Source of the DNA: Thermosynechococcus sp.
Lineage (GTDB): Bacteria > Cyanobacteriota > Cyanobacteriia > Thermosynechococcales > Thermosynechococcaceae
Length of the DNA: 64,000 nucleotides
Assembly: GCF_025999095.1 (NCBI RefSeq)
Contig: NZ_AP024678.1
Span: 558,001-622,000, forward strand
Direction of reading: 5' to 3'
The notes beneath the pieces are model-generated. The model was given only the letters and a program-made list of their open reading frames with translations, was not told the origin of the DNA and did no database searches. The translations under genes were made by a program, and so were the position numbers. How positions within the stretch are numbered: the first letter of the stretch is position 1; each line of letters starts with the position of its first letter. Shown here piece after piece: positions 20,305 to 54,591 of the stretch.

Positions 20305-20574
20305 CTACGCTGCGGCAGTCGCCAGCTCCTGCAATTCAATGCGAAAGGTTTCAATCACCGGATTGGCTAACAGTTGATCGGCAATGTCGGTGAGTTGTGC
20401 CTCGGCAGTGGCGCGATCGCGGGCCTCTAGGGTCAGTTCCACCAGTTTGCCAATCCGCACCGATTGCACATTTGTATAACCCAGATGATGGATCCCCGCC
20501 TGTACGGCGACTCCTGCGGGATCTAACACCGATGGTCGCAGTGTCACAAACACCTGTGCCCGGAATTGTGCCAT
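20305..20574 (-). CDS. purS: FGAM synthase small subunit
   Basis: PurS is the small structural subunit that bridges PurL and PurQ in the FGAM synthase complex. The 89-aa protein matches the usual 80-90 aa size and shows the family patterns FVTLRPSVLDPAGVAVQ, IHHLGY and VRIGKLVELTLE near the middle, followed by the C-terminal NPVIETFRIEL. It starts 3 bp after the SPFH gene stop and leads into the split gene and purQ, forming a compact minus-strand run. Confidence 0.93.
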   Translation of the reverse strand: MAQFRAQVFVTLRPSVLDPAGVAVQAGIHHLGYTNVQSVRIGKLVELTLEARDRATAEAQLTDIADQLLANPVIETFRIELQELATAAA

Positions 20575-20577
20575 GGA

Positions 20578-21537
20578 CTATACCTCGCGGGGAGACTGCT
20601 CGATTAGGGACTTTACCCCCTCAATCGTGGCTGGGATACTGCTGGGGTCTATAAATAGTACTTTACTGCTATCACTGTGGCCAATGGTGCGTCCCATATC
20701 CAAGTAGCTCTGAGCAAGGAGAAACTGGAGCGCTTCCTTCGTCTTGGGATCTTCGTGCAGTGCTGCCGCAATAATCTTCATCGCTTCTGCAGTTCCTTGG
20801 GCACGCAAAATCTGATCTTGACGCTCGGCTTGGGCACGCAACACGACCACTTTTTGTTCTGCTTCCGCTGCCAGAATGGCGGCTTTTTGTTCTGCCTCGG
20901 CGGCTAACACTTGAGCTTCTGCTTTACCCCGAGCAGAGTTGATGGCCGCTTCCCGTTCCCCTTCGGAGGTGAGAATAGCAGCGCGTTTTTTGCGCTCCGC
21001 AGACATTTGCAGCTCCATCGACTCTTGGACTGCCTGCGAGGGGGCAATATCCCGCAGTTCCACACGGGTCACCTTCACGCCCCACGGATCTGTAGCAATA
21101 TCAAGATCCCGTAGCAGGGTCTCATTCACTTGGGTACGGGCGGTAAAAGTTTCATCCAGTTCTAGCTTCCCCATTTCTGCCCGAATCTGCGTTTGCACCA
21201 AATTCACCATCGCCATTTTCAGGTTTTCCACCCTATAGTAGGCGCGCTCCATATCAATAATCCGCCAGTAAACGACGGCATCCACGGTAATCGTTACATT
21301 GTCACGGGTGATACACTGCTGCGGCGGAATATCTAGGACCTTTTCCCGAATCGTTTCCTCAAAGGCCACGCGCTCAAAGATTGGCAATATAAAATTCAAC
21401 CCCGGTTCCAAGCGACGGTGATAGCTGCCCAACCGCTCCACCAGCGCCATATTGCCCTGATTGACAATCCGCACAGAGCTAGCGACACCCCAGGTCCCAA
21501 ACCCCAAGAAAGACAGCAAAGCAAAGAGCTCATTCAT
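20578..21537 (-). CDS. SPFH/band 7 (stomatin-prohibitin) membrane protein
   Basis: The 319-aa protein has one N-terminal membrane segment and then an SPFH domain ([20 protein letters not shown] through VTRVELRDI). A long alanine- and glutamate-rich coiled coil follows ([20 protein letters not shown]). Such proteins oligomerise on membranes as scaffolds and protease modulators; the cyanobacterial homologues (Phb1-3, slipins) have no firm function. I chose the ATG at 21537, five codons inside the longest frame, because it precedes the membrane helix directly. It is upstream of, and nearly abuts, purS. Confidence 0.9.
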
Positions 21538-21552
21538 GGTTGTGGTTCCCAA

Positions 21553-21751
21553 ACCAGTTCACTACTACTCTAGTGGCTTGCCCTTTGAGCGTCATGCCCA
21601 GCGGCAGAGAATTCATAATCTGTTACCCATTCCCCTGGGAGGGGTGTTGCTACTTATGATATTTGTGATGCAACCGCACATCTCTTTTCCGCAGATTCCG
21701 TTAGCTGCTTTAATGCACCAACGCCCTCTCTAGAGAGAAAATTGTTCTGAG
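21553..21751. other. Gap between SPFH gene and island, boundary of an insertion
   Basis: No convincing gene is present. One short plus-strand frame from an ATG at 21536 could encode 65 aa with a single hydrophobic stretch, but it has no ribosome-binding site and is likely chance. The 13-bp direct repeat described separately lies here (21714-21726). Confidence 0.5.
21714..21726 (+). repeat. Left copy of 13-bp direct repeat flanking low-GC insert
   Basis: TGCACCAACGCCC is present here and again at 24026-24038. The two copies enclose the low-GC membrane gene and the decayed transposase. Confidence 0.75.
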
Positions 21752-22882
21752 ATGCTCAGCAAAACAAAAATAGAAAAATATGCACCATATGGAGTTTGGA
21801 TATTTTTTACCTACTTTTGTCGTTATTACGCAATAGAAATTTTGAATGGCGGAAACAACTGGAAAACGGGTGATTGGCTAATCAATTACAGTGCAGGATT
21901 CGTACGAAGAGGACTAATAGGGAGCTTCTTCTTAAAAGTCTCAGATTTTGGTTTACCATTGTTATGGGTAACCTATATCACACAAGTAGCTGTCTATGCT
22001 CTAATTTTTGGTCTTGTACTAAAGCTCTATTATAGAAAGAAAAGAAGTTTGTTTTGGCTTTTAATTCTATTTTCGCCAGCATTTTTGCTCTTCCCTTTTT
22101 ACGATATACAAGGTGGATTCCGAAAGGAAATTCTTATTTTCCTAATCTTTGCTTTTTTTTGCCTGATATATGCCAATAAGAATGTCACCCCTTTTAAGCT
22201 AACCTTGATATCTGTTGCTTGGAGCGTAGCAGCACTCTCGCATGAATTAACTGTTTTCACGCTACCGTTTTTTATTTATTTGATTTATGTGAGTACAAAA
22301 GACGGACTTATCACTAGTCGTACCGCTATTGCCTACAGCTTAATCCTCACCATAGCAAGCTCAGTAATTTTGCTTCTCGCTTTTTTTTATAAAGGCAATG
22401 AGGCTTTAGAGCAGGCCATTTGTCAATCTTTAACAACTCGCAACCTTGATCCCAATATCTGTAAAGGATCTATCGATTGGCTTAGCGAAGATATCGGTCC
22501 TGCGCTAGGACGTGTACTAAGTTCTTTGAATCACCGGTCTATCTTTACCCCTTTATTCCTTTGGCTTGCACTACTTCCTCTTTCATTTACTACATGGTGG
22601 AACAAAGAACGAAAAATTCTGTTTTTGGCTAGCATAGCAACAATCTTTCCTCTTTTTCTCGTTGCAATTGATTGGGGTCGTTGGGTTCATGTCATCATAT
22701 TTATGTTTTTCTGTCTTGCTCTTGCAAGCGAAGTAGACATTAAGTATCGCTACAGACGAATTTTTATCGTTACTGGACTAATCTATCTAACAACTTGGTC
22801 CATACCACACTGTTGTGTTGGTGGATATGACACTGGTTTTTTAAGACGTGCATTAAAGTGGCTAATAGACAATCTGGGTTAA
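21752..22882 (+). CDS. Polytopic membrane protein, possibly envelope polysaccharide-related
   Basis: The 376-aa protein has about ten hydrophobic segments. A loop after the first segment reads TGDWLINYSAGFVRRGLIG. I recall this pattern from membrane proteins of surface-polysaccharide clusters, where some act as GT-C-type glycosyltransferases or polymerases; function here is not proven. The DNA is clearly more AT-rich than its neighbours and carries no HIP1 octamer, both signs of lateral gain. It starts 26 bp after the left copy of the 13-bp direct repeat. The frame is intact from ATG to TAA. The next plus-strand gene cluster (24.06 kb on) concerns lipid-linked pentose synthesis, which may or may not be related. 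Confidence 0.7.
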   Translation: MLSKTKIEKYAPYGVWIFFTYFCRYYAIEILNGGNNWKTGDWLINYSAGFVRRGLIGSFFLKVSDFGLPLLWVTYITQVAVYALIFGLVLKLYYRKKRSLFWLLILFSPAFLLFPFYDIQGGFRKEILIFLIFAFFCLIYANKNVTPFKLTLISVAWSVAALSHELTVFTLPFFIYLIYVSTKDGLITSRTAIAYSLILTIASSVILLLAFFYKGNEALEQAICQSLTTRNLDPNICKGSIDWLSEDIGPALGRVLSSLNHRSIFTPLFLWLALLPLSFTTWWNKERKILFLASIATIFPLFLVAIDWGRWVHVIIFMFFCLALASEVDIKYRYRRIFIVTGLIYLTTWSIPHCCVGGYDTGFLRRALKWLIDNLG

Positions 22883-22992
22883 AAAAACAATGGTTTATGC
22901 GGGTGTTGGTACACAATTAGCTTTATTGATTAATATACCTATGGGTTGAATCACCGGTTTCCAGCATAATCTTCCCCTCTCTCCATCCTGAT

Positions 22993-23933
22993 TCATGCAG
23001 CAGGCGCACTATGCCCAGCCCGCACGCACTGTGGCGTGTCAAGATAGGTCAAAGTCTTGATGATCGCCGCACGCACATGACTCTCCGCAACCTGCCAGTC
23101 AAAGGCCCGTGGGAAGAGATGATCCCCAGTTGCTTGAACCAGTACATCATATTCTCGGCAAGGCTGCCCAGGTGATGGCCAGATTCTTCCTTCCAACCTT
23201 CCTGTTCCTTGGCGGCAATCTCGGCGAGGATCAGGTCACGGGGAGGACTATTCCCCCAAGGCACCGCCTCCTCGCGCGGCGGTATGCTTACCTTCACCTG
23301 AGGTTCGCTGGTGGCAGCATGCACTGCCTCGGCGTCGTAAGTGCCATCGGCACTGACTTCGGAAATGTCGCCTTCGACTTTCGAGAGCAGGTCAGGAAAG
23401 ACTTCACTGTCGTGCCAGTGGGTAGTGGTGATCTCGATGCGGACGATGTTCTTTTGGTCGTTGCATCTACCGACAGATCGATTTTGCGCCAGGTGCAACG
23501 CTTGAGTGCCCCATGCTGGTGCACCTTACCATTCACTTTCACGGAAAATCTTCAAACCGATCGAGTCCACCACGACATGGATCGCACCTGTTCTCCAACG
23601 ATGTGGAATCTTCACTTCCAACGTGGCCGCCTGGCGCGACAGATGAGCGTGATTCAGCACCGGCAAGTTCAGCCCACACAGGCGCATCAGGGAGTTCACC
23701 AACCCTTCCGCAGCACGATAGGGCGGACGGGACAGAATCTTGATCATCAGACAGAATTGAATGGCCCAGTCAGAATAAAGCCTCGACCTACCTCGCCCGT
23801 TCGGAGGAAGGGGCGTCCAGTTCTTGGCAATGTCCTCCTCATCAAACTAGATCGTTTGGTTGCTATGATTGACCAGTGCATGGTCATATTTCGCCTAGTT
23901 CTTCACCTAGTAGCGATGTTTCTCCTCTGCCAT
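22993..23933 (-). pseudogene. Decayed IS5-family transposase
   Basis: Joined across three frames, the minus strand encodes an IS5-like DDE transposase: a HALVNHSN...FDEED N-terminus, SDWAIQFCLMIKIL, LEVKIPHRWRTGAIHVVVDS with the first catalytic Asp, VSADGTYDAEAVHAA with the second, and an AENMMYWFKQL-type C-terminal region with the Glu. It is inactive. Three in-frame TAG codons lie at codons 9 (23909-23907), 13 (23897-23895) and 29 (23849-23847), and frameshifts are near 23525, 23456 and 23130. By alignment with the family from memory, codons 13 and 29 replace tryptophan (TGG). Terminal inverted repeats were not identified. Confidence 0.85.
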
Positions 23934-24025
23934 GCGCTCGTTTCGCTGGGTTCTTACTACCATTTGCTTTCCCTTTGTCTGTCAAACGACCATCTATTAG
24001 TGTAGAAGTAAAATACTATTGTTAT

Positions 24026-24038
24026 TGCACCAACGCCC
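24026..24038 (+). repeat. Right copy of 13-bp direct repeat flanking low-GC insert
   Basis: TGCACCAACGCCC, identical to 21714-21726. It lies between the decayed transposase and the start of the HAD-UbiA gene. The following bases CAGCAAAAC also occur shortly after the left copy, at 21758. Confidence 0.75.
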
Positions 24039-24061
24039 AGCAAAACCTTAAATTGTAAAAA

Positions 24062-25468
24062 ATGGTTTATCTTCTTGTTAATCTCGATAACACCCTACTG
24101 ACAACGGATGTTCTTCTAGAATTAATCTGTTTGTCTTTTGGTAGGTCTCTAATTCAATTCTTCAAAATAAGAAGCTTCAATCCTGCTCAGATCAAAGGAA
24201 AATTAGCTACCTGTGCTGATTTAGACATTACCACATTACCCTATAACTCAGAAGTTATTCAGTATATTCAAGATTGGAAAGCCAAGGGGGGTAAGGTTGC
24301 CCTCATCACTGCCACTGATCAACTCGTTGCTGAAACGATTGCTGCCCATTTGGGGCTTTTTGATGAGGTTTATGGTTCTGATGGCCAGCTTAATTTGAAG
24401 GGAGAAAACAAGGCAAGGTTTATCCTAGAGCACTTTGGTGAGCAAAATGTTATCTACATGGGCAATTCTGTGGCTGATTTACCTGTGTGGGCAGTTGCGG
24501 CCAAAGCAATTACCGTCAATGCCTCTCCTCGGCTACGCCAAAAAGTCGAGCAAATCAATCCCAATGTGGAACATCTAGGGAGTGCAAAACGCAGCATTCA
24601 ACCCTACTTCAAGGAAATTCGGCCCCATCAGTGGGTAAAAAATGTGTTGGTCTTTGTGCCGATGCTTGCAGGGCATCAGTTTAATTTGCCCACTTTTTGG
24701 ATTGCGCTGGTGGCAGCAATTGCTTTTAGTCTGACGGCGTCCAGTGTCTATGTTTTAAATGATCTTTTAGATTTGCAGGCCGATCGCGCCCATCCCCGCA
24801 AGCGTCATCGTCCCTTTGCCGCTGGAGATATTCCCCTCTCCCACGGGATATGGCTGATTTTGATCCTCCTCGGCGCCGGCATGGCGATCGCCACCACCAT
24901 TAGTTGGTCATTTCTGGGCCTTCTCCTTGCCTATTATGGTCTCACGACTGCCTACTCCTTTTACCTAAAGCGGCAGATAGTTATTGACATTTGCCTCCTT
25001 GCTGGCCTTTACACGATTCGCATCTTTGCAGGTGCGGTTGCCACAGGGATTTCCCTCAGTGTGTGGCTTTTGGCGTTCTCCATCTTTTTCTTCTTTTGTC
25101 TGGCAAGTGTCAAGCGGCAAGCAGAACTGGTGGATCACTATCACCGCAAACAGCTCAAGGCCAGTGGTCGAGGCTACCACGTTGACGATTTGCCGATTAT
25201 TAGCATGATGGCCATTGGGGCGGGTTATGTCTCAATTTTGGTGCTGGCGCTCTATATCAACTCTCCCCAAGTGCAGCTTCTTTACACAAAACCGCAGGTA
25301 CTCTGGGGCATTTGCTGTGTGCTTCTATACTGGATTACCCGAACCATCATGCTGACCCACCGCGGTTTGATGCACTATGATCCAATTGTTTATGCAATTA
25401 AAGATCGACAAAGTCAAATCTGTTTCTTGATTTGTCTGGTTTGCTTTATCCTAGGTGGAGTTTTATGA
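24062..25468 (+). CDS. HAD-UbiA fusion, polyprenyl-phosphate phosphoribosyltransferase-like
   Basis: This is a 468-aa two-domain protein. Residues ~1-175 are a HAD-phosphatase fold. Residues ~185-468 are a UbiA prenyltransferase with about eight membrane helices. The UbiA motif NDLLDLQADRAHPRKRHRP (Asn233-Asp234, Asp237, Asp241) matches the decaprenyl-phosphate phosphoribosyltransferase group (mycobacterial Rv3806c), which transfers 5-phosphoribosyl from PRPP to a polyprenyl phosphate. The HAD domain would then be expected to remove the 5-phosphate. However, motif I reads NLDNT (Asn7 in place of the nucleophile Asp) and motif IV reads GNSVAD (Asn135 for Asp), so phosphatase activity is doubtful. 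It is coupled by ATGA overlap to the next gene. Confidence 0.85.
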   Translation: MVYLLVNLDNTLLTTDVLLELICLSFGRSLIQFFKIRSFNPAQIKGKLATCADLDITTLPYNSEVIQYIQDWKAKGGKVALITATDQLVAETIAAHLGLFDEVYGSDGQLNLKGENKARFILEHFGEQNVIYMGNSVADLPVWAVAAKAITVNASPRLRQKVEQINPNVEHLGSAKRSIQPYFKEIRPHQWVKNVLVFVPMLAGHQFNLPTFWIALVAAIAFSLTASSVYVLNDLLDLQADRAHPRKRHRPFAAGDIPLSHGIWLILILLGAGMAIATTISWSFLGLLLAYYGLTTAYSFYLKRQIVIDICLLAGLYTIRIFAGAVATGISLSVWLLAFSIFFFFCLASVKRQAELVDHYHRKQLKASGRGYHVDDLPIISMMAIGAGYVSILVLALYINSPQVQLLYTKPQVLWGICCVLLYWITRTIMLTHRGLMHYDPIVYAIKDRQSQICFLICLVCFILGGVL

Positions 25469-25872
25469 CTTTACAAACCCTAATTATTCGCTATACTGCT
25501 TTTGCGGTGATTGCTACCTTGATGAATTTATTTTTTCAGAGGATAATATTAATTATTGATAATAGCTTGCCTTATTTTATGGCCGCAGTGGCAGTGGGTA
25601 CGCTCGTGGGATTGGTGGTGAAATACTATCTGGATAAGCGATGGATTTTCTTTGATCATAAAAAGGGTATCCATCATTATAGCCGTCAATTTAGTCTGTA
25701 TGCTTCAATGGGAATTTTTACAACCGCCATTTTTTGGGGATTTGAAACCGTATTTTGGTTGATTTGGCAAAGCCATTTTATGCGGGAAATGGGTGCCATT
25801 ATTGGTTTAGCTATTGGCTATGGGGTCAAGTATCACTTGGATAAACGATATGTCTTCTCTAATGACTCCTAG
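25465..25872 (+). CDS. GtrA-like membrane protein
   Basis: This small (135 aa) four-helix membrane protein of the GtrA/DPMS family carries the paired VKYYLDKRWIFFD and VKYHLDKRYVFSND signatures, which close each half of the fold. GtrA-type proteins are thought to flip or help transfer polyprenyl-phosphate-linked sugars; in mycobacteria a GtrA-like protein (Rv3789) sits with the arabinan genes. The ATG at 25465 overlaps the HAD-UbiA stop as ATGA, indicating coupled translation. The longer open frame upstream is inside the previous gene. Confidence 0.85.
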   Translation: MTLQTLIIRYTAFAVIATLMNLFFQRIILIIDNSLPYFMAAVAVGTLVGLVVKYYLDKRWIFFDHKKGIHHYSRQFSLYASMGIFTTAIFWGFETVFWLIWQSHFMREMGAIIGLAIGYGVKYHLDKRYVFSNDS

Positions 25873-27208
25873 GAGTTCTCTTAAAAGGCTCTGCGGCTGG
25901 GGACGCTATCCTGTGCAGACCTGTCATGTTTATTGCCCGCGCTCAGAATCCGAGATTATCCAGCTTCTCAACAGAGGTTTGCCACTCATTGCCCGTGGAA
26001 ATGGCCGTGCCTACGGAGATAGCGCCCTCAATCGGCAAGCAACACTGCAAATGAGCCACTTCAATCGCCTATTGGGGTTTAATCCGCAAACTGGTCAATT
26101 GATTGCTGAGGCAGGGGTTCTGCTGGCAGAGATTCTAGAGATTTTTGTGCCTCGCGGTTGGTTTCCCCTGATTACCCCCGGCACGAAGTTTGTTACGGTG
26201 GGGGGTATGATTGCCGCCGATGTGCATGGAAAAAACCACCACAAAGAGGGCAGTTTTGTTCAGAGTTTAGACTGGCTGGATCTCCTAACCAGCGAGGGGC
26301 AAATGTATCGCTGCTCCCCTTCAGAAAATCGAGATTTGTTTTACTGGACGGTGGGGGGAATGGGCTTGACGGGGGTGATCCTCAGGGCAGCCTTTCGATT
26401 GCGCCCCATTGAGACGGCTTGGGTTCGCCAAACTACCTATGTCGCCAGGAATTTGGACGAGGCGGTTGATCTCTTTGAGGCTGCGCAGGATGTGACCTAC
26501 GCCGTGGCTTGGATTGATTGTCTAGCGGCTCGTTCTCAGTTGGGGCGGTCTGTGGTGATGCTAGGGGAACACGCGACACGCCAGGAGCTGCCAACCAAAT
26601 ATCGGCAGAGGCCACTGCAGACTCCGCAACGACGTCAGTTCTCGATTCCTGTGGATTTTCCCAATGGTGCCTTGAATTCATTAACTGTGCGTGCCTTGAA
26701 TCAACTGTATTTTCTCAATAGTCAACGCAAGGCTGGCCTGTCCTTTGTCGATTGGGATACTTTCTTCTATCCCCTGGATAGTCTCTTGGGATGGAATCGC
26801 ATCTATGGGCGGCGTGGTTTTGTCCAGTTCCAATGCGTCTTGCCCCTGAGCACTGCCCGCGAGGGTCTAGGGGCGTTACTGCATTGCACGTCAGTCGCAG
26901 GAGCGGGGTCCTTTCTCGGAGTTTTGAAGAAGTTGGGTGATCAACAGGGTTATTTTTCATTTCCGATGGCGGGTTATACCTTGGCTCTGGACTTTCCGAT
27001 GTGCCAACGCACCCTCAAGCTTTTGGATCAACTGGAGGAGATCACTCTACAGCATGGGGGTCGCTTTTACCTTGCCAAGGATAGCCATTTAACTCCGCTG
27101 CGCCTGCGCCAGTCCGATTGTCGGGTAGAAACGTTTGTAAAAGTCAGGGATGCCCACCAGTGGAGGGTGAACTTTGCTTCAGAACAGTCGCAGAGGTTAA
27201 ATTTATGA
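25862..27208 (+). CDS. DprE1-like FAD-dependent polyprenyl-phosphoryl-ribose oxidase
   Basis: A flavoprotein of the vanillyl-alcohol-oxidase fold, expected to oxidise the 2'-hydroxyl of polyprenyl-phosphoryl-ribose to the keto form. From this ATG it is 448 aa. The FAD-binding RGNGRAYGDS is at 45-54, followed by TPGTKFVTVGGMIAADVHG and KNHHKEGS. The catalytic lysine region VLKKLG is at 354-359 and the YLAKDS lysine is Lys406. Where mycobacterial DprE1 has Cys387 (NICVDFP), this protein has TLALDFP with Ala375. ATGs at 25850 and 25862 are both possible; both overlap the gtrA-like gene. Followed by an ATGA overlap with the reductase. Confidence 0.87.
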   Translation: MTPRSSLKRLCGWGRYPVQTCHVYCPRSESEIIQLLNRGLPLIARGNGRAYGDSALNRQATLQMSHFNRLLGFNPQTGQLIAEAGVLLAEILEIFVPRGWFPLITPGTKFVTVGGMIAADVHGKNHHKEGSFVQSLDWLDLLTSEGQMYRCSPSENRDLFYWTVGGMGLTGVILRAAFRLRPIETAWVRQTTYVARNLDEAVDLFEAAQDVTYAVAWIDCLAARSQLGRSVVMLGEHATRQELPTKYRQRPLQTPQRRQFSIPVDFPNGALNSLTVRALNQLYFLNSQRKAGLSFVDWDTFFYPLDSLLGWNRIYGRRGFVQFQCVLPLSTAREGLGALLHCTSVAGAGSFLGVLKKLGDQQGYFSFPMAGYTLALDFPMCQRTLKLLDQLEEITLQHGGRFYLAKDSHLTPLRLRQSDCRVETFVKVRDAHQWRVNFASEQSQRLNL

Positions 27209-27939
27209 CGGCTCCTGTGTTAATTCTGGGAGCGGCCTCTGATATTGGGCGGGCGATCGCCCACCGGTTTGCAGCTCAGGGCTATCCAATGCAGTTGGCT
27301 GCACGGCAGGTGAGCCGCCTAGCGCCAGATAAAGCCGATTTGGAAATACGCTATGGTGTGGCTGTCAGTATCCATGAATTCGATGTCTTGGCGCTGGAGA
27401 CCCATGCAGCCTTTATCCAGCAACTCCCGGAGCAACCGGCGATTGTGATCTGTGTTGTTGGTTTCATGCCAGACCAAAAAGCATGTGAGCAAAATTTATC
27501 CCTTGCTCTTGAAGTGATGCGCACCAATTATGAAGGCCCAGCGGTTATTTTAAGTCTCTTTGCCAATCTGTTTGAGCAGCGGGGGTTTGGTACGTTAGTG
27601 GGGATTTCCTCTGTAGCTGGGGAACGGGGGCGGGCGAGTAATTACTTCTATGGTTCTGCGAAAGCTGGCTTCACAGCATTTTTGTCGGGATTGCGGCATC
27701 GCCTTGCCAAATCGGGGGTACAGGTCCTAACGGTGTTGCCCGGCTATGTGAAGACGCGGATGACCGAAGGGATGACATTGCCCCCCCACCTTACGGCGGA
27801 GCCAAAGGAAGTGGCCGATGCAATCTTCTCAGCTATAGAAAAAAAGAAGGACGTGATCTACGTGCGACCCACTTGGCGCTGGATCATGGCGGTGATTCGT
27901 TGGATTCCTGAACCCTTATTTAAGCGACTGTCTCTGTGA
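27205..27939 (+). CDS. DprE2-like short-chain dehydrogenase
   Basis: This 244-aa SDR is expected to reduce the 2'-keto intermediate made by the DprE1-like enzyme, giving the arabino epimer, with NAD(P)H. It has the cofactor motif LGAASDIG (residues 8-15), catalytic Ser135/Ser136 in ISSVAG and the YGSAK motif with Tyr149 and Lys153. The C-terminal TWRWIMAVIRWIPEPLFKRL helix is typical of DprE2 proteins and could associate with the membrane. The ATG at 27205 overlaps the preceding stop as ATGA. A longer frame from 27118 lies in the previous gene. Confidence 0.87.
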   Translation: MTAPVLILGAASDIGRAIAHRFAAQGYPMQLAARQVSRLAPDKADLEIRYGVAVSIHEFDVLALETHAAFIQQLPEQPAIVICVVGFMPDQKACEQNLSLALEVMRTNYEGPAVILSLFANLFEQRGFGTLVGISSVAGERGRASNYFYGSAKAGFTAFLSGLRHRLAKSGVQVLTVLPGYVKTRMTEGMTLPPHLTAEPKEVADAIFSAIEKKKDVIYVRPTWRWIMAVIRWIPEPLFKRLSL

Positions 27940-33000: not shown

Positions 33001-33039
33001 GCTGAGGAAGTTGCGCAATACCAGTTGACGTGGAATCAT
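30028..33039 (-). CDS. sbcC: SbcC/Rad50-type DNA repair ATPase
   Basis: This 1003-aa SMC-like ATPase works with the SbcD/Mre11 nuclease to open hairpins and process double-strand ends. The Walker A GANGAGKSS is at residues 31-39. A long Gln-rich coiled coil follows, and the zinc hook CPLC (Cys498, Cys501) is in mid-protein. A second coiled coil then leads to the C-terminal signature and Walker B segments (SYSGGEAFRINFALRLALA, FLIIDEGFGTQD). I chose the ATG at 33039, which starts the usual MIPRQLVLRNFLSY. An ATG at 33060 would add seven residues. sbcD is not adjacent. Confidence 0.93.
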   Translation of the reverse strand: MIPRQLVLRNFLSYRQATLPFAGLHLACICGANGAGKSSLLEAIAWALWGQSRASREDDVIYYGEMEAQVTFEFSVQGQTYRVVRLRRREQQTVLELQIQTAAGYTPLTGRSLRATQEKIIQILRLDYATFVNSAYLRQGRADEFMAKRPSERKQLLATLLGLDQYETLAEAARDRARDYKAQISVLEQRLQTLADQLAQEPHLRAQQAAVNQQIQQQRQQVQQCQQRLQEQQAAYHIHQLQQRDYAHLQQQRDTLAATIAHLEQQCQTLRQEQAAIADLAARAPLLEAAVRQWESLKIAEAQLQQCFGNYQQLRQQRDRHQQSLDQQRQDLLRTLHGLESQQQFLLEQCQQLEKFLKQENQIVAAFEQLQRARAHLQAQEELQQKVFPLLQAKQRLELEQQQQEQRLRSRRDELQQLWQHLRQQIERQPALQEAVTLITAQIATLEKQRIYQDHVREKGLERRRFLEQLQARQREYERQINQLEQRLELLNQPGAICPLCQRPLDREHYQAVRQRHVAEKEELLNQVWVIREQLAVTEREIQVLRREYLTVGYEISQLTQLFEQRGQLQQQLQSTQDLEPQLDRLAGEIQQIEGQLRNGHQESLGELQAIEAELARLNYDEKNLAIARGQVEKWRWAEAKEQELRQAQRQYQQIQQQLPNLIAQQEELQQQLNALATTSPLAQTLARIDQQLAALAYDPDRHAQIQAQLAALAADYEAYGALQRGRSRQPQLRQDLKHLEETLQQQRAQLQRITDKLATLEETTRTASRLAADLHQQQQHLLQQQQTLEATLAQHGKLSAEIEQLQRLKQEYDQGQQTLAHLRHQYRLYCELAQALGKNGIPALLIETVLPHLEAETNHILGRLSNHQLHVQFITQRSRRRSGADTKPIETLDILIADCQGTRPYESYSGGEAFRINFALRLALARLLAQRSGSDVQFLIIDEGFGTQDAQGCERLIAALNAIAPEFHCILAITHVPALKEAFQTRIEVTKVAGASQLSIIT

Positions 33040-33121
33040 AGGGCACCACACCCTTGACACAGTTTAGGGCATTCCTATGGGGAAGAATGTGCCACCCGTG
33101 AGAGTCGGCCTAAAATTAAAA

Positions 33122-33298
33122 TCAAAGTATACTCTTGGGGTTCCCCTTACTTTCTGTCTGGTCGTTCGGGTTTTTCAGCGAATTTAGGATTGCCTTTACT
33201 TTAGCAATGTCTGGACTAAAGTCACCCTCGGGCTTTTCCACCTCCCACTGAAGCGACTGTTGTGCGTATATTCAATTCTTGCAAAAAGCGCCGTAAGT
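33122..33298 (-). pseudogene. Possible short gene remnant
   Basis: Two adjacent open frames on the minus strand read like broken protein-coding sequence: NLRRFLQELNIRTTVASVG, then in another phase VEKPEGDFSPDIAKVKAILN ending at a TGA (33124-33122). The second could stand alone as a 39-codon ORF from a GTG at 33241, but no family is recognised. Neither frame has a good start and ribosome-binding site. It lies upstream of sbcC. Confidence 0.3.
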
Positions 33299-33690
33299 TT
33301 TATTAGAGTCATGTTCTGAAGTATGGAGCATATACCACCCTTGTCTTAACTATGGGATCTATAAGCGGTGATAGAAGAAGATTCCATCGTGGCTTTTGTA
33401 GTGTTGAGCCTCTACTACAAGGGGTGTAAAAGAGGTAGAGTCCTTTCCTACAGTAGCCCTCACATTTTTTGAGCCTCTTCTGTGCCTGTGAAACGGGCTA
33501 TCAATGTAACTCATCCAAAGGAAATGTAAAACCCCGACTCAAGGGCGATCACAACTTGAATTCCGAAAAAAATTATGGTTTGCTAAAGATAGACACTCAT
33601 TGATTACGACTTCGCTGTCACGCTTTGGCAATCTTTGATCGAATCGCCAATGAATAGACAGTACTTGATCATTGAATAAGGTAGGTTAAA
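33299..33690. other. Intergenic DNA upstream of the cyAbrB gene
   Basis: No gene is seen in this stretch, which holds a direct repeat TTGAGCCTCT (near 33404 and 33469) and a CTCTAC/GTAGAG inverted repeat around 33411-33440. It probably contains the promoter and regulatory region of the AbrB-like gene. An AAGGTAGG ribosome-binding site lies at 33678-33685. Confidence 0.5.
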
Positions 33691-34092
33691 ATGGGACGCA
33701 AACCAGTAGAACCCTTGACAGGTGCTGCTTTATTAGAAAAGTACAAACAGCTGCAACATCTCAGCCACGAAGAAAAAGCAAAGGCCTGTGGCTACTATAC
33801 CGTGACCAAAACCGGCAAGGAGCGGATCAGCAAACTGAAGTTTAATAAGGCACTTCTTGAAGCCTTAGGCGTCAATCTTGACAGTAAGTCAGGCCGCGGT
33901 GGCAGCCGGGGGGGGCGCAGTGCCAGTTATCGAATTACGGTACAAGCCAATGGCAATTTGCTCATTGGGGCAGCCTATACTAAACAAATGAATCTCAAAC
34001 CGGGGGATGAGTTTGAGATTACCCTTGGCCGGAAGCACATTCATTTGAAACAAGTGAGCAGCAACGGTCAACCCACCGATGATGAAGAGTAA
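33691..34092 (+). CDS. AbrB-like transcriptional regulator (cyAbrB family)
   Basis: The 133-aa protein matches the cyanobacterial AbrB (cyAbrB/CalA) layout. The N-terminal part (PLTGAALLEKYKQL, then ACGYYTVTKTGKERI) is followed by a C-terminal AbrB-type swapped-hairpin domain (ASYRITVQANGNLLIGAAYT, LKPGDEFEITLGRKHIHLKQV). Members bind DNA with low sequence specificity and are known to affect nitrogen- and carbon-responsive genes. Whether it is the cyAbrB1 or cyAbrB2 type is unclear. It converges on oplAH (14 bp between stops), and cyanophycin genes are just beyond, which is suggestive but not proof of regulation. Confidence 0.88.
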   Translation: MGRKPVEPLTGAALLEKYKQLQHLSHEEKAKACGYYTVTKTGKERISKLKFNKALLEALGVNLDSKSGRGGSRGGRSASYRITVQANGNLLIGAAYTKQMNLKPGDEFEITLGRKHIHLKQVSSNGQPTDDEE

Positions 34093-42074: not shown

Positions 42075-42884
42075 TCAACCGAAACGACCATTGACGTAAT
42101 CGGCGGTCTTCTGCTCCACGGGCTTCGTAAAAATAGACATGGTGTCGTTGTACTCCACCAACTCGCCGAGGTACATAAAGGCAGTGAACTGGGAAATGCG
42201 AATGGCCTGCTGCATATTGTGGGTCACAATCAAAATAGTGACTTGATCCTTGAGCTCCGTAATCAGGTTTTCAATACTGACTGTTGCAATTGGATCCAAA
42301 GCAGAGGTAGGCTCATCAAAGAGAATCAGCTCCGGATTAGTGGCAAGGGCACGGGCAATACAGAGCCGCTGCTGCTGTCCTCCCGAAAGAGAGGTCCCTG
42401 GCTCTTTGAGGCGATCTTTAACTTCATCCCAGAGAGCGGCATTGCGCAGCGATCGCTCCACCACCTCATCAAGAATGGCACGGTTAGTGATGCCACGGAT
42501 GCGCAGGCCGTAGGCCACATTTTCGTAAATGGACTTAGGGAAAGGGTTTGGCTTTTGAAAGACCATGCCAATCTGCATGCGCACTTCGATGGGATCCATC
42601 TGCAAAAGATTGCGCGGGTTTTCATCCCCCAACCAGATTTCCCCTTCGTAGCGATTACCAGGATACAGATCATGCATGCGGTTGAAGCAGCGCAGCAATG
42701 TCGTCTTGCCACAACCAGAAGGGCCGATTAAAGCTGTTACTTGCTTTTCATAAACCGCCAGGCTGATATTCTTCAGTGCTTGGTTGCTCTTGTAGTAGAA
42801 GTTCAGATTTCGCACCTCAGCCAGCTTTTTTAAGGACTGTTGGGTTGGGGGAACTCCCTGTCCTGAATCTGTTGGTTTTACCAT
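42075..42884 (-). CDS. pstB: Phosphate ABC transporter ATPase
   Basis: PstB powers high-affinity phosphate import. The 269-aa ATPase shows Walker [10 protein letters not shown] (54-62), the LSGGQQQR signature, Walker [14 protein letters not shown] and the H-loop THNMQQA. The PstB-specific NRMHDLYPG and [19 protein letters not shown] segments are present. It overlaps pstA by 7 bp and is the last gene of the pst run. Confidence 0.97.
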
Positions 42885-43807
42885 TTGATGCTCTTCCTAA
42901 AACGATAACGAAGGTAAATGGCCATTGCGTTGACACCCAAGGTCAAAACAAGCAGGACAATCCCTGCTGCCGCTGCATTTACCTGAAACTCTTCTTGCGG
43001 GCGTGACACCCAGTTAAACATTTGAATTGGCAACACAGTAAAGGGTGACCAGAGCCATTGGAACGAAATATAGGGAAACTCGGCCTTTAATGGGGCTTCC
43101 GGCAAAAAAGTGATAAAGGTTAACGCACCAATGGTTACTAGTGGAGCCGTTTCTCCCAAGGCTCGCGACACCCCCACAATCACACCAGTGAGAATCCCAC
43201 CCATAGAGTAGGGTAGAATGTGGTCAGCAATGGTTTGCCAACGGCTGGCTCCCACAGCATAGGCGCCCTCACGAATACCTTGGGGAATTGCCCGAATCGC
43301 TTCCCGTGTGGCGACAATGATCACCGGTAAAATCAACAAGGCTAGGGTACAGCCAGCGGTAAGAATACTTTCACCCCACTTGAGAATATAAACAAAAAAC
43401 CCTAGAGCCAACAGGCCATAAATGATGGAAGGAACACCGGCCAAATTGGTGATGTTGATTTCAATGAAATCAAGAAGCCAATTCTTCGGCGCGTACTCCT
43501 CAAGGTAGATGCCGGCTGCCACTCCCAGTGGTACGGCAACCACAATTGTAACTAGAATAACCAGTAGGCTACCTACCCACGCTGTTAAAATACCTGCTTC
43601 AGCCGGATCTCCACTAGGAGGTGACGTGAAAAACCTCCAGTTCAGGAGCGGAGCTCCCCGTAGGAGCAAATCTCCCACTAGGAGTACCAGTGTCAGTAGG
43701 GCAATAAAGATAGAAAAAAAGCCCAAGAAAATAAAAAACTTTTCCCAGCGCGTTCGGACCTCTATAGAGGCTCGAATTGCCAGCGGATTCCGTAATATGT
43801 CAATCAT
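42878..43807 (-). CDS. pstA: Phosphate ABC transporter permease
   Basis: A 309-aa inner-membrane permease with about six hydrophobic spans. The EAA-type coupling loop is visible ([20 protein letters not shown]), as is the downstream [13 protein letters not shown]. The N-terminal segment is short and basic. It starts directly at the pstC stop codon. Confidence 0.95.
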
Positions 43808-44821
43808 TTAGTACACCTCCCGATAGCGGCGGCTGATAAAGTAACCGGCCACATTCATGAGGAATGTCACTAAAAAGAGCATGATGCCTGCTGCAAAAAT
43901 AGATTGGTACTCCAAGGAACCATGGGGCAAGTCTCCAAGACTCGCCGAGACAATATAGGCTGTTGTTGTTGCTGCCCCTTCCAGGGGATTGAAGGTAAAT
44001 TTGGGTTGCAAACCAGCAGCCACAGCAACAATCATTGTTTCCCCGACCGCCCGTGCTAAACCCAAGATGTAGGCGGCAATTAAACCTGAGGTTGCCGCAG
44101 GTAATAGTACCCGCAAAGCTGTTTGTAGGCGAGTTGCCCCCATAGCGTAAGAACCTTCCCGTAGGTGTGAAGGAATAGCTTGCAGGGCATCCTCAGACAT
44201 ACTCATAATATAGGGAATAACCATCAAACCAACCACAATGCCAGCGCCTAGCATATTGAATCCGGGTAGCTCGTAGTATTCCCATGGTTCCTTCCCGGGC
44301 GCATACCATTGCTGTACACCCAAAATGATTTTCTGGAGCAATGGCGTAACAAATAGGAGGGCAAAATAGCCATAGACCACTGTGGGTACAGCAGCCAATA
44401 GTTCCAAAATCGGCTTCAGAATTTCTCGCACCTTTGCCGGAGCAAACTCACTCAGATAAATTGCACCAATCGTGCCAAATGGGATCGCAACAAAGCTGGC
44501 AATAACACAGGTCGTAATAGTTGCCGATAGCAGTGCCCACACCCCAATGCTGACCGGCTCAATCAAAGGGGACCACTCTGTGGTTGTCAAAAATTCTGCA
44601 AGGGCACCTATTAGCGATTCCTGATGAACCTCCATCACTTTCTGGAAAAAGATAGCAGTTTCACTCAGGAGAATGTAGATGATCACAGTGGTGATCATCA
44701 CCGAAGAAAATGCCGCTATAAAAAGGAAAGACCCAATAATGCGCTCTACCCAGATACGTTTTTGTCTGGCACTTGCCGAAATGGGCAGTTCAATGCGTGG
44801 GGCTAAGGGTTGATCGACCAT
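43808..44821 (-). CDS. pstC: Phosphate ABC transporter permease
   Basis: This is the partner permease to PstA: 337 aa from the ATG at 44821. A TTG nine codons earlier gives a longer frame, but the AGGTGG Shine-Dalgarno sequence about 13 nt upstream supports the ATG. It has about six membrane spans, PstC-type FGTIGAIYLSEFAP and a coupling loop (REGSYAMGATRLQTALRVLLP), with ARAVGETMIVAVAAG near the C terminus. The stem-loop between pstS and pstC may lower its expression relative to pstS. Confidence 0.94.
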   Translation of the reverse strand: MVDQPLAPRIELPISASARQKRIWVERIIGSFLFIAAFSSVMITTVIIYILLSETAIFFQKVMEVHQESLIGALAEFLTTTEWSPLIEPVSIGVWALLSATITTCVIASFVAIPFGTIGAIYLSEFAPAKVREILKPILELLAAVPTVVYGYFALLFVTPLLQKIILGVQQWYAPGKEPWEYYELPGFNMLGAGIVVGLMVIPYIMSMSEDALQAIPSHLREGSYAMGATRLQTALRVLLPAATSGLIAAYILGLARAVGETMIVAVAAGLQPKFTFNPLEGAATTTAYIVSASLGDLPHGSLEYQSIFAAGIMLFLVTFLMNVAGYFISRRYREVY

Positions 44822-44850
44822 AGGTAAAATTCTGCCACCTAAAATCAATT

Positions 44851-44884
44851 GGGGAAAGAGGCCTCAAGTTAGGCGTCCTTCCCC
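44851..44884 (-). terminator. Intercistronic stem-loop between pstS and pstC
   Basis: On the minus strand GGGGAAGGACGCC (44884-44872) pairs with GGCCTCTTTCCCC (44863-44851) with one mismatch and one wobble, around an 8-nt loop. A moderately T-rich AATTGATTTT follows. It lies 11 bp after the pstS stop. This fits a partial terminator or mRNA-stabilising hairpin that keeps pstS expression above pstCAB, as is common for binding-protein operons. Confidence 0.6.
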
Positions 44885-44894
44885 CTATCTTAGA

Positions 44895-45905
44895 CTACTC
44901 CTTGGCCTCTAGACTCAGTAACTCATTGATGGTGAGACCAACTGCCTCCTTACCGCCAAAAATGGTGCCAATGCGATTCTTGTTAAAGTTGGCAAGAACT
45001 GTCTTATAGGCACTAGCGGGAAGAGGAACATACTTAACTTTCTTGACCATCGCAGGAGCGTTGTTCAGGTAGTAGGTGATAAATTTTTTCACCTCAGGAC
45101 GTTGTGCAGCTTTAGCGTTGACATAGATAAAGATGGGTCGGGAGAGTGGCTGATAGGTACCGTCAACCACTGTTTTTTCAGAGGGCATCACCGGACCCTT
45201 GCCGTTGTCAATGGCCACTGGCTTCAGCTTGCTTTTGTTTTCTGCGTAGTAAGCATAGCCGAAGTAGCCTAGGGCTCCCCGCTCGCGGGATACCCCTTGC
45301 ACAAGAACGTTATCATCCTCACTGGCAGTGTAATCCTTGCGGCTAGCTTTTGCTTTACCGTTGATGGCCTCAGTGAAATAGTCAAAGGTACCGGAATCTG
45401 CTCCTGCACCAAAGAGTTTCAGAGGAATATTCGGAAACCCTTTGCGCACTTGGTTCCAGTTGTTGATTGTAGAGCCTGGTTCCCAAATCTTTTTCAGTTC
45501 AGCAACAGTCAGGCTTTTCGCCCAAGTATTTCGGGGGTTCACAACTACGGTGAGGGCATCATAGGCAACGGGCAGCTCAATGTACCGGACGCCAGCTGCT
45601 TTGCAGGCTTCCATTTCCTTGGCCAAAATGGGGCGGGAGGCATTGGAGATGTCGGTTTCACCGCGACAAAACTTTTTGAAGCCGCCACCGGTACCGGAGA
45701 TGCCTACAGTAACACGAACTTTGCCGCCTTCAGCTTTTTGAAAAGCTTCGGCAACTGCTTCAGTGACAGGATAGACTGTACTGGAGCCATCGATACGAAT
45801 CGTGGCGGCTTCTTGGGACAAGGTAGGGGGTATCAGGCTAGCGGAAAGAGCCGCCACGGCAGCGAATATCCCCAGAGGGGCATAGCGTTTTGCAGATGTC
45901 AACAT
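44895..45905 (-). CDS. pstS: Phosphate-binding protein PstS
   Basis: This periplasmic phosphate receptor is 336 aa from the ATG at 45905, which is preceded by AGGA. It has a Sec signal ([20 protein letters not shown], with cleavage near LSQEA), then [14 protein letters not shown] and the phosphate-contact [20 protein letters not shown]. An ASRPI segment and a [10 protein letters not shown] segment are also typical. An upstream in-frame ATG at 45971 lacks a signal-peptide character. Three Pho-box-like repeats lie about 130 bp upstream. Confidence 0.95.
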
Positions 45906-46034
45906 GGTACTGTTTCCTAGCGGAGTAAACAACCCTTTACGTACAGTAGCTTCGGGGTGGCGGTTACCCACACGTTTCCAAGTGGTGAGCCGCTACAATG
46001 TCCCCATCGCCAGCATAGTCAAACATTTACGGGA

Positions 46035-46067
46035 TGGAGTTAAGAGAAGGTAAAAGTTTGTTTAAAA
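46035..46067 (-). promoter_or_regulatory. Pho-box-like triple direct repeat upstream of pstS
   Basis: Three 11-bp units stand in direct contact on the minus strand: TTTTAAACAAA (46067-46057), CTTTTACCTTC (46056-46046) and TCTTAACTCCA (46045-46035). Each is an 8-bp element resembling the cyanobacterial SphR/PhoB box (PyTTAAPyPyT-like) plus 3-bp spacer. A TATGCT (46017-46012) could be the -10. This predicts induction of pst under phosphate starvation. Confidence 0.65.
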
Positions 46068-46176
46068 TACCCCTACACATTGGGGATCAACCCTGTTGTT
46101 CACGCCGGTGACTTACTGTTGGGTTTAGTGTTAGACGTTAACTCTGGGCTAGGGAAACATTGAAGGATTGTCTGCA

Positions 46177-47064
46177 ATGCCATCATTCATCTCTAAAATC
46201 TATCAGTGGCAGGGCTTTTCCTGCGCCTATCGCTTCAGTTCTCAAGCAGGATGCTCCCCCATTCTCTTTATCCATCCCGTGGGGGTGGGGCTCTCTGGGC
46301 AGTTTTGGGAGCGCTGTGTCAGCTATTGGCAATCTCAAGGGGCAGGTTATTCATTTTATATCCCTGATTTGCTGGGCTGTGGCCAGAGTGATTTGCCCCA
46401 TTGCGCCTACTATCCGGAAGATTGGGCAGCGCAGTTACATTTCTTCATTACATCTGAGATCTGCCAACCAGTGATCCTCGTTGTTCAAGGGGCATTGTTT
46501 CCCGTAGCGATGGAGCTAGTACATCTTGATCCTCAAGGAGTAAGAGCACTGATCCTCAGTGGCCCACCTGCCCCTGCTTTGGTGTCTGAAAATACTGACC
46601 CTAGGTGGCAGAAGGTACGTTGGAATCTTTTTGACTCGCCATTGGGTCGCGTCTTCTATCTCTATGCGCGTCAGAAAAATTTTCTGCGTCGGTTTTCAAT
46701 CAATCAACTGTTTGCCAAGGGGGAGGATGTGGATGACGAATGGCTGGGAATGCTGGCGGCGGGTGCTGCTGATCTTGAGAGTCGCCATGCAGTGTACTCT
46801 TTCCTCTCAGGTTTTTGGCGGCGGGATTACCGTCAGAAAATGCGGGATATTCGTCAACCAGTGCTTGTCGTGATGGGGGATCAGGCTTCCAGTATCAGTC
46901 GCGAGGGTGGGGCTGAATCACCTGCAGAACGCCTAGAGTTTTACGCCAAGACATTTCTCAATGTGCAAGGGGAGGTAATTCCGGGGCGCAATGTCCTGCC
47001 CTATGAGTCAGCCCCTGCTTTTGTGGAGGTGTGTCAGGCGTTTCTGCGTGCCCAAGCCCTCTAA
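46177..47064 (+). CDS. Alpha/beta-hydrolase-fold protein lacking nucleophile serine
   Basis: This 295-aa protein has the fold's N-terminal HPVGVGLSGQFWERC oxyanion-type region and PDLLGCGQSD. At the nucleophile elbow it reads LVVQGALFPVAMEL, so the usual GxSxG serine is replaced by glutamine. I recall cyanobacterial relatives with the same VVQGALLPVA pattern, so this is probably a family trait, not a sequencing error. It could be a non-catalytic binding protein or use another residue. The ATG at 46177 has GAAGGA 9 nt upstream; a TTG at 46168 is less likely. Divergent from pstS. Confidence 0.7.
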   Translation: MPSFISKIYQWQGFSCAYRFSSQAGCSPILFIHPVGVGLSGQFWERCVSYWQSQGAGYSFYIPDLLGCGQSDLPHCAYYPEDWAAQLHFFITSEICQPVILVVQGALFPVAMELVHLDPQGVRALILSGPPAPALVSENTDPRWQKVRWNLFDSPLGRVFYLYARQKNFLRRFSINQLFAKGEDVDDEWLGMLAAGAADLESRHAVYSFLSGFWRRDYRQKMRDIRQPVLVVMGDQASSISREGGAESPAERLEFYAKTFLNVQGEVIPGRNVLPYESAPAFVEVCQAFLRAQAL

Positions 47065-47852
47065 AGCCAACCGCGCAGCCTATAGATGAGAAGACCTTGA
47101 TATTCCCGCAGGGCAATAGTGGTGATGTCCACGTTGTAGGGATTGGGGATCAGGCTGAGGAACAGGTTTTGCCAGGTGGGCGATCGCGCGATCGAGGGGT
47201 AGCGATAGTCTGTGGGTGCTGGAATGATGTTCATCCCCAAACGGCGAAAAATGGCGACGGCGCGGGGCATGTGGTAGGCGGATGTCACCAGCAGTAGCTC
47301 TCCCTGAATGGAATGCTTTTCAAGAAGGGCTTTGACGTTCACGGCATTTTCATAGGTATTTAGGGAGGTGGTGTCCAGCAGAATCTTGTCCATTGGCACG
47401 CCGCAGGTGGTGGCAATTTCCGCCATATCTGCCGCCTCGCCCCGCTGAAAGGGTTCGCCGAGCCAGTCAATGCGGCCACCGCTAAGGATGAGGTAGGGGG
47501 CATAGCCTTGGCGAAAGAGGTGGGCACCGTAGAGAATGCGATCGCCCGTTTCTGTGACTTCGATCCAAGGGCGCGGGGCACTTTGGGGAACAACAGCACC
47601 ACCGAGAACAACGATGGCTGCAGCTTTGGGCATCGGATCAGGGGGTAAATACTGCCGCTCTAGGGAAGCAATGAGAGCGGCTGCCACATAGTCATTCCCG
47701 CTCAAGAGTAAAATACCTAGGGCAATGACCAGGGCGATCGCTGCCTGTTTGGGGGCACGCCAAAAGCGCACAATGGCAAAAACTAGCGCCCAACAGGCCA
47801 AAGACAATGGATACAGCAGCGGTGGCAGCAATTTCGACAACAGTAGATCCAT
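47061..47852 (-). CDS. DUF218 (YdcF/ElyC-like) membrane protein
   Basis: This 263-aa protein has two N-terminal hydrophobic segments, then a DUF218 domain: AAIVVLGGAVVP, APYLILSGGRID, ETTSLNTYENA-like DTTSLNTYENAVNVK, LLVTSAYHMPRAV. ElyC-type members affect cell-wall precursor lipid metabolism in E. coli; the role here is unknown. The ATG at 47852 follows the PSII S4 gene by four bp, so the two are coupled. The longer frame to 47957 lies inside that gene. The 3' end meets the hydrolase gene tail to tail with a 4-bp overlap. Confidence 0.82.
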   Translation of the reverse strand: MDLLLSKLLPPLLYPLSLACWALVFAIVRFWRAPKQAAIALVIALGILLLSGNDYVAAALIASLERQYLPPDPMPKAAAIVVLGGAVVPQSAPRPWIEVTETGDRILYGAHLFRQGYAPYLILSGGRIDWLGEPFQRGEAADMAEIATTCGVPMDKILLDTTSLNTYENAVNVKALLEKHSIQGELLLVTSAYHMPRAVAIFRRLGMNIIPAPTDYRYPSIARSPTWQNLFLSLIPNPYNVDITTIALREYQGLLIYRLRGWL

Positions 47853-53976: not shown

Positions 53977-54591
53977 GGTAATCCTCCTCGCACACAAAAT
54001 TGACAGTGATTCGACAAAGCGGTGAACCGAGAACACACATCATGAGCAATCCTTCAAGGGAGCCGGATGCCACTCGCCGCATCTATGCCTAAAACTGTCC
54101 CAATCTGTTGTTGATGCAAAGGGTGTTTTGGCACCACGACGAAACTTTTAGGTGACTTTACCCAATCCCCAACCAAATGACAAGCCTTTGCCTCCGCCTT
54201 GCCTTGCCACCTCCGGCGGATGAATGATTTGCCAAAAAACAAAAATACGAATTTCCTACCTACTGGTTAATAATCAGAAAGCCCGAATTCATCACGCTTT
54301 GGGCTTGATTAATTCCCATGGGAGAAAAATTGCTATTTTCGATAAATTAATAAGTATAATTAAAGTCTGATAATTAGTGTGTATAGTTTTTTTAATAGTT
54401 TAAGTCAGTTTAGATCCCTCTTCTCCTTGGTCGTCACCCCAAAATTGTCCTATAACACTTGTGCCAAATTGAGTTAAAAGTGGCACATATCCATCTTTGC
54501 TCCTAGGGACAATCAAAGCAAGCTTGCTTGGTAGAATAAACGAGTTTGTAACGATTTTTGGCGATCGCCCTTCTGACGGAGCTTTGTCCCC
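53977..54591. other. Gap upstream of the M23 peptidase and 54592 genes
   Basis: No credible gene is present. It is AT-rich at 54240-54410 (AATTAATAAGTATAATTAAAG type sequence) and contains an AAGCCC/GGGCTT inverted repeat near 54280-54306 and one HIP1 octamer (54561). It probably holds divergent promoters. A 62-codon minus frame (54054-54242) is poor coding sequence. Confidence 0.5.

Follow-up and report, generated by a model that had tools for sequence, protein, structure and literature searches.

A predicted GT-C glycosyltransferase gene inserted beside a putative polyprenyl-phosphate-pentose operon in Thermosynechococcus, and a 13-bp repeat that is unlikely to be its scar

In Citrobacter, a polyprenyl phosphoribose synthase, a flippase, optional epimerases, and a GT-C transferase make up a pathway that has been likened to mycobacterial arabinan synthesis and to periplasmic O-antigen glucosylation (PMC11127046). 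A locus of similar composition is described here from Thermosynechococcus sp., in a stretch of 64,000 nucleotides (assembly GCF_025999095.1, contig NZ_AP024678.1, positions 558,001 to 622,000), which is called the window, its genome being G000. The locus comprises a gene for a polytopic membrane protein of 376 amino acids (aa), a dead insertion sequence (IS) of the IS5 family, and a downstream operon encoding a HAD-UbiA fusion, a GtrA family protein, a DprE1-like oxidase, and a DprE2-like reductase. An earlier account made from the DNA letters (the sequence-only reading) had viewed the membrane-protein gene and the IS as a segment that probably arrived at a perfect 13-bp direct repeat.

The three-component system of Citrobacter youngae O1/O2, with its GT136 enzyme, shares with the window a HAD-phosphatase phosphoribose synthase, a flippase, and a GT-C transferase (PMC11127046). 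Judged by sequence and, for the transferase, by fold prediction and position, all three components appear to be present in the window, with HAD and UbiA in one gene, a GtrA flippase gene, and a predicted GT-C transferase. DprE1/DprE2 homologues occur in Citrobacter where arabinofuranose is added; those of the window score below the equivalog cut-offs. In contrast, the flippase is GtrA in the window and MATE in Citrobacter, and the Citrobacter GT-C enzyme has an extra carbohydrate-binding domain; the likeness to GT136 is drawn from its description. The word stem cyanobacter- does not occur in PMC11127046. The mycobacterial arabinan pathway (Rv3806c, Rv3807c, DprE1/DprE2, Rv3789, AftA/B/D, and Emb) has the donor steps proposed for the window (PMC11127046) and transferases of the same GT-C fold, whereas the window protein has 376 aa against 599-1312 aa for the AftA, AftB, AftD, and Emb chains. 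The gtr seroconversion clusters GtrA-GtrB-Gtr(type) combine, as here, a small flippase, a donor synthase, and an exchangeable last transferase (PMC7389260, PMC11127046). However, the donor in the window would be made by UbiA, HAD, and DprE instead of GtrB, and the slot is chromosomal. A phage search gave no match, and a plasmid search returned a single record, from Ruegeria, at 29% identity. Two further systems are compared by description, namely the noeCHOP operon of Azorhizobium, a polyprenyl-phosphate-arabinofuranose operon for surface or signal glycans (PMC5080398), and pilin arabinosylation by TfpW, a GT-C arabinosyltransferase according to a cited title (PMC12369383). With the IS5 family (NF033579), the window element shares a transposase fragment and short terminal inverted repeats, but it is dead and no target duplication is recognised. 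No literature joining DprE1, decaprenylphosphoryl, and arabinose with cyanobacteria was found. The type of pathway is already known, and the transferase family and its exchange slot are without a description in the searches made (Pfam, NCBIfam, and literature).

The best explanation of the whole locus, with a probability of about 0.68, is that a GT-C gene was inserted by the pentose operon and an IS then followed, that the 13-mer is not a scar, and that the enzyme at this slot has been swapped within the genus. In the shared ancestor of G000 and a second genome of the genus, G002, a GT-C-fold glycosyltransferase gene would have entered the DNA immediately before a polyprenyl-phosphate-pentose operon that was already there. 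Later, as we infer the order, an IS5-family element would have landed between the transferase gene and UbiA and died in both genomes. HAD-UbiA would make polyprenyl-phosphate-ribose, which DprE1 and DprE2 would epimerise towards arabinose; GtrA would flip the lipid-linked pentose, and the inserted enzyme, with D41 as candidate catalytic residue, would pass the pentofuranose to a surface acceptor. Swapping of the last enzyme at the slot would account for another GT-C-type gene in G004, a scrap of the latter in G008, and nothing in G005 and G001. The features are listed in Table 1.

Table 1. Features of the locus, in window coordinates.
Feature	Position	Strand	Basis or remark
SPFH/Band 7 gene, conserved left flank	20578..21552	-	PF01145; matches in relatives
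Segment missing at the empty sites of G005 and G001	21698..24038	.	Comparison; left edge approximate
Left 13-mer copy	21714..21726	+	Coincidence or IS-end relic, not a target duplication
Inserted gene for a polytopic membrane protein of 376 aa, by prediction a GT-C-fold glycosyltransferase	21752..22882	+	Open reading frame, model, fold comparison
Dead IS5-family element, 1138 bp, transposase remains	22901..24038	-	NF033579 match, terminal repeats
Left terminal inverted repeat of the IS, GGGTGTTGGTACA on +	22901..22913	-	Pairs with the right end
Right 13-mer copy, right terminal inverted repeat of the IS	24026..24038	+	Partner repeat; similar end in the G008 element
HAD-UbiA fusion, probable polyprenyl-phosphate phosphoribosyltransferase and phosphatase, operon start, ancestral flank	24062..25468	+	NF006088, 617 bits; PF01040, PF12710
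GtrA family, probable flippase of lipid-linked pentose	25465..25872	+	gtrA_1, 163 bits (cut-off 50); PF04138
DprE1-like oxidase	25853..27208	+	NF053785, 400 bits (cut-off 500)
DprE2-like reductase	27205..27939	+	NF053786, 202 bits (cut-off 250); PRK07102.1, 365 bits, above cut-off

On comparison with G005 and G001, the segment is a real insertion. The intergenic sequences of these two genomes are closely alike, and between the blocks that match the window they hold 71 bp (G005) and 66 bp (G001), against 2.4 kb in the window. In the MAFFT alignment the window can be matched to the empty sites up to about 21697 on the left and again from 24038/24039 on the right, while the BLAST match ends at 21644-21651 and restarts at 24038. 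The segment is occupied at the same place in G000 and G002, and by parsimony the empty site is taken as the older state. An insertion beside the polyprenyl-pentose operon, as the sequence-only reading had it, is therefore retained, but not the part of that proposal in which the 13-mer serves as scar or agent of insertion or illegitimate recombination. It is quite unlikely that the ancestor of the genus already had the gene and that deletions removed it from G005, G001, and others. Such parallel loss would agree with G004 and G008, which show GT-C-type genes held and lost at this place, and with the decaying copy in G002; on the other hand, the intergenic sequences of G005 and G001 are alike and scar-free, no DNA of the gene is found in any other relative of the genus, and its guanine-plus-cytosine (GC) content is 37%.

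Among the 11 genus genomes searched, G003 and G010 have no UbiA match. Around 0.37 kb of other debris lies between the matching blocks of G008. Four other genes separate the SPFH and UbiA blocks of G007, and G006 looks alike over the 650 bp that were read; in G009, UbiA is preceded by a divergent gene. In G004 about 83 kb separate the donor operon from the SPFH gene, and transposase open reading frames (ORFs) that resemble each other are seen near both breakpoints of this separation. An IS-mediated rearrangement is what the sequence suggests for G004.

The sequence-only reading had placed a dead IS5 transposase between the repeats, and this is borne out by stops in all three frames of the element's own strand and by a 149-aa transposase fragment that matches NF033579 with 90 bits (E 1.8e-25). 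The whole-protein cut-off of this model is 140 bits, and a lower score is expected because only a fragment is left. The terminal inverted repeats of the IS, GGGTGTTGGTACA and the reverse complement of TGCACCAACGCCC, are identical at 11 of 13 positions; the reverse-complement 13-mer with two mismatches occurs at five places in the 64 kb, the left end of the IS being one. In G002 this element stands at the corresponding site, with the same ends and a length of 1130 bp, and G008 has a 70%-identical relative with TTGCACCAACCGCC at the position matching the right end. The right 13-mer is thus a terminal inverted repeat of the IS, because of its inverted partner, the same ends in G002, and the similar end in G008. 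The outer flanks, ATGC and AGCA, present no clear target duplication by eye in this decayed element.

The 13-mer TGCACCAACGCCC has just two exact copies in the 2.50-Mb genome of the window, both confirmed where they had been reported (Table 1). It is very improbable that the segment arrived by insertion or illegitimate recombination at this 13-mer with the two copies as its scar. Two perfect copies, unique in the genome and close to both ends of the segment, do invite such a view, but the right copy is the terminal repeat of the IS, and the equivalent of the left copy in G002 is TGCACTAATGACA, with 4 of 13 bases different, next to a right copy that is the perfect 13-mer. Moreover, no copy is present in the empty-site intergenic sequence of G005 or G001, and the left edge lies about 16 bp off. 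A target duplication is rejected in view of the bare empty sites, the left divergence in G002, and the displaced left edge. The sequence-only reading had expected that an empty-site strain with one copy would prove insertion, and the two empty sites carry none; it had also counted relatives without the repeat at the junction as evidence to the contrary, and G002 has the segment at the same place with the left copy changed. Its argument that coincidence with both edges makes chance less likely fails on the left, where homology ends about 16 bp before the copy. Similarly, a chance 13-mer had been put at a few percent, whereas in the window the perfect direct repeats that are 13 bp or longer and lie within 2.5 kb number 17, and five pairs agree in at least 16 out of 17 positions, so the repeat by itself is ordinary.

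The left copy and the IS end agree in 16 of 17 bases, and this similarity stops after 17 bp; the G002 left sequence matches at 12 of 17. A search for the 17-bp IS end with at most two mismatches in the 11 genus genomes gives 15 matches, of which three are the two of the window and one of G002. The loci of the remaining 12 have no BLAST match to this IS, so near matches arise by chance. None of the 15 lies in G001, and those in G005 lie away from the empty site. From the sequence, the left copy would be either chance or all that is left of a second IS end. In the latter case the locus might be the relic of a composite transposon, in which a pair of ISs carried the glycosyltransferase gene in. 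This is an unlikely history: the left copy resembles the IS end and stands near the left insert edge, and the right-hand neighbour of the gene is indeed an IS, but the similarity is confined to 17 bp and weaker in G002, no transposase trace lies to the left of the gene, and near matches elsewhere in the genus occur by chance. A 9-bp direct repeat, CAGCAAAAC, at 21757-21765 and 24038-24046, of which the right copy is native and present in the G001 empty site too, may reflect microhomology at the junction; if the true junction lay there, about 55 bp would be left unexplained.

The HIP1 octamer GCGATCGC is absent between the sites at 20413-20420 and 24884-24891, in agreement with the sequence-only reading, which had seen none from 20420 to 24884. 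The window has 87 HIP1 sites in total and this gap is the second longest. The longest, 42449-47180 (4731 bp), has GC down to about 48%. When sites are placed at random, a largest gap of such size or more appears in 16% of runs and the 2325-bp segment is free of sites in 4%; 8.8% of the 2325-bp stretches of the window are HIP1-free. In relatives, the SPFH side is site-free in 7 of 7 and the UbiA side in 7 of 7, counting G007 and G006 over part of the UbiA side and leaving out G003, so the flanking part of the HIP1 desert is older than the insertion. HIP1 absence as a mark of the insert is rejected, as the gap is unexceptional at random and the desert is partly ancestral flank. The description of the insert as low in GC fits the membrane-protein gene (37%) but not the IS, which at 53% is like the window (53.6%); the ancestral GtrA gene has 38%. 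Further low-GC stretches of the window are 33001-34000 and 53501-55000 (about 45-48%).

The inserted gene encodes a protein that belongs to no family in Pfam or NCBIfam, and when solved structures were searched by profile, a single chance match came up (E 1.8). An identity with GT87 was considered from a weak match in one of 80 relatives (E 0.037) and was not used. The AlphaFold2 model has a mean pLDDT of 92 and a pTM of 0.91. In the Foldseek search with this model, the first eleven rows comprise PglB, oligosaccharyltransferase, and DPY19 entries plus a single translocon chain; membrane proteins of unrelated kinds follow lower in the list. When the Foldseek top 1000 are compared by VIA-align, rows 1-43 (Z 12.1 to 6.8) are by title GT-C enzymes or complexes holding one, including the AftA, AftB, AftD, and Emb arabinosyltransferases, with the chain identity of 9n9j_I taken by inference; the next row, 44, falls to Z 6.1 and is a designed protein. 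The GT-C fold is read from the uniformity of rows 1-43 and the drop at row 44. These enzymes are classed as GT-C, in part after PMC11127046. Two points tell against the fold assignment, namely that Foldseek gives nothing below E 0.001 and that helical proteins at Z below 13 may share merely a common arrangement. Based on the model, the inserted protein is most likely a sugar-transferring GT-C-fold enzyme.

Relatives of the protein are present in 7 of 386 cyanobacterial genomes, that of the window counted. A pattern scan of species-representative genomes yielded 236 candidates, of which 228 were confirmed, and the family counts that follow cover 80 of the 228. These 80 include cyanobacteria, SAR11, Gammaproteobacteria, Actinomycetota, Acidobacteria, and Chloroflexi. 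Outside the scan pattern, K125, D307, and R310 are invariant in all 80, G309 is glycine in 79, and R124 is arginine in 73. In GT-C enzymes, an acidic residue of the first extracytoplasmic loop is catalytic. The candidate for this role is D41, which follows helix 1 in what would be the first extracytoplasmic loop and is aspartate in 54 and glutamate in 26 of the 80; this count is weakened by the scan pattern itself, which wholly or partly required D41, W42, L43, I44, N45, Y46, G49, and F50. Support independent of the pattern comes from alignment A2, with aspartate or glutamate at this position in 8 of 8 sequences. Between G000 and G002, nonsynonymous divergence (dN) in the inserted gene is 0.050 and synonymous divergence (dS) 0.184, giving a ratio (omega) of 0.27; the comparison genes have 0.30 (UbiA), 0.20 (DprE1), 0.13 (DprE2), and 0.20 (SPFH). 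This suggests that the gene was constrained for most of the shared history, with a recent loss in G002 unless sequencing errors are involved.

A link of the enzyme to pentose is suggested by gene neighbourhoods of other bacteria. DprE1, DprE2, and UbiA are all present in 5 of the 80 loci with family relatives. One of the five, the Nitrosomonadales locus L105, has DprE1, DprE2, a HAD-IB gene, the family member, and UbiA in a gapless operon in which each gene overlaps the next. The cyanobacterial cases are the window lineage, G284, where the family member comes after DprE2-DprE1, and G168, a distant cyanobacterium in which two tandem family members are followed, all on one strand, by a GT2-like gene, DprE1, and DprE2 (L161:10905-13857). 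The family gene and its DprE partner co-occur in 4 of 386 cyanobacterial genomes against 0.3 expected (p 6e-5), and in three genomes with the genus left out (p 5e-4), in a test that takes two 386-genome samples as the same genomes and is the sole control for linkage. The commonest Pfam family among 147 neighbour proteins of the family loci is Glycos_transf_2, with 15 members.

A role in the pentose pathway is weakened by several observations. No DprE1 match lies near the gene in 75 of the 80 loci, and 18 have a GT2/DPM-synthase-like match, which indicates that the family is not tied to pentose donors. Four of the DprE1 loci (L055, L061, L062, and L063) are gammaproteobacterial and mutually related, at 48-98% identity, so that 5 of 80 amounts to about two independent cases. 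In G021 both genes are present 0.8 Mb apart, and the G002 copy of the inserted gene has frame-shifting length differences. At the donor operon itself, the DprE1-like and DprE2-like proteins are homologous to their models but score under the equivalog cut-offs, and the operon persists without a GT-C gene at the slot in G005, G001, G007, and G009 and in the read part of G006 (slot only), none of which has one upstream of UbiA. It is consequently conceivable, if rather doubtful, that the inserted gene is a hitchhiker outside the pentose pathway which uses another lipid-linked sugar or none. The frameshifted copy and the scarcity of DprE1 beside the GT2/DPM-synthase-like matches agree with this, while the recurrence of DprE1/DprE2 linkage in unrelated bacteria, the omega of 0.27, and a 376-aa frame that is open in G000 speak for a pentose-linked enzyme. 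As a whole, the family is likely to work with several lipid-linked sugar donors.

The best reading of the site before UbiA is a slot in which the terminal transferase of such a pentofuranose system, with its three components, can be exchanged. In G004, a gene for a 510-aa TMEM260-like protein (PF11028, 46 bits, cut-off 24) lies directly upstream of UbiA, the only one in the 11 genus genomes. The TMEM260-like family is one that we take to be GT-C. On this assumption, two unrelated GT-C-type genes have preceded one donor operon. The G008 slot retains a 53-bp piece, 87% identical, of the end of the G004 gene, and about 200 bp matching G004 transposon-like DNA at 76-77%. A wider proposal is that the GT-C family includes dedicated pentofuranosyltransferases acting on polyprenyl-phosphate-pentose donors and that, in these cyanobacteria, unrelated GT-C enzymes replace each other at a single slot of the chromosome before a donor operon that stays fixed, altering the surface glycan in the manner of gtr cassettes; it is put forward tentatively, at somewhat less than even odds.

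The genes of the donor operon are on the same strand as the inserted gene and their ends overlap, with the dead IS between the inserted gene and UbiA. Of the 11 genus genomes, 9 have the HAD-UbiA gene. The donor operon of G005 is interrupted by about 1.3 kb of DNA (L037:2170-3489) that separates UbiA from GtrA and includes a 390-aa ORF on the opposite strand, TnpB-like by eye.

The locus illustrates that an IS terminal repeat together with a chance match can mimic an insertion scar. In place of the misleading repeat there is now a testable account, which consists of a candidate terminal pentosyltransferase without a family model and its donor operon. The genus offers a natural experiment, with strains that have the enzyme, a frameshifted copy, another enzyme, scrap, or none. 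If the account is true, it would offer a way into cyanobacterial glycans with arabinofuranose or ribofuranose that have so far not been described.

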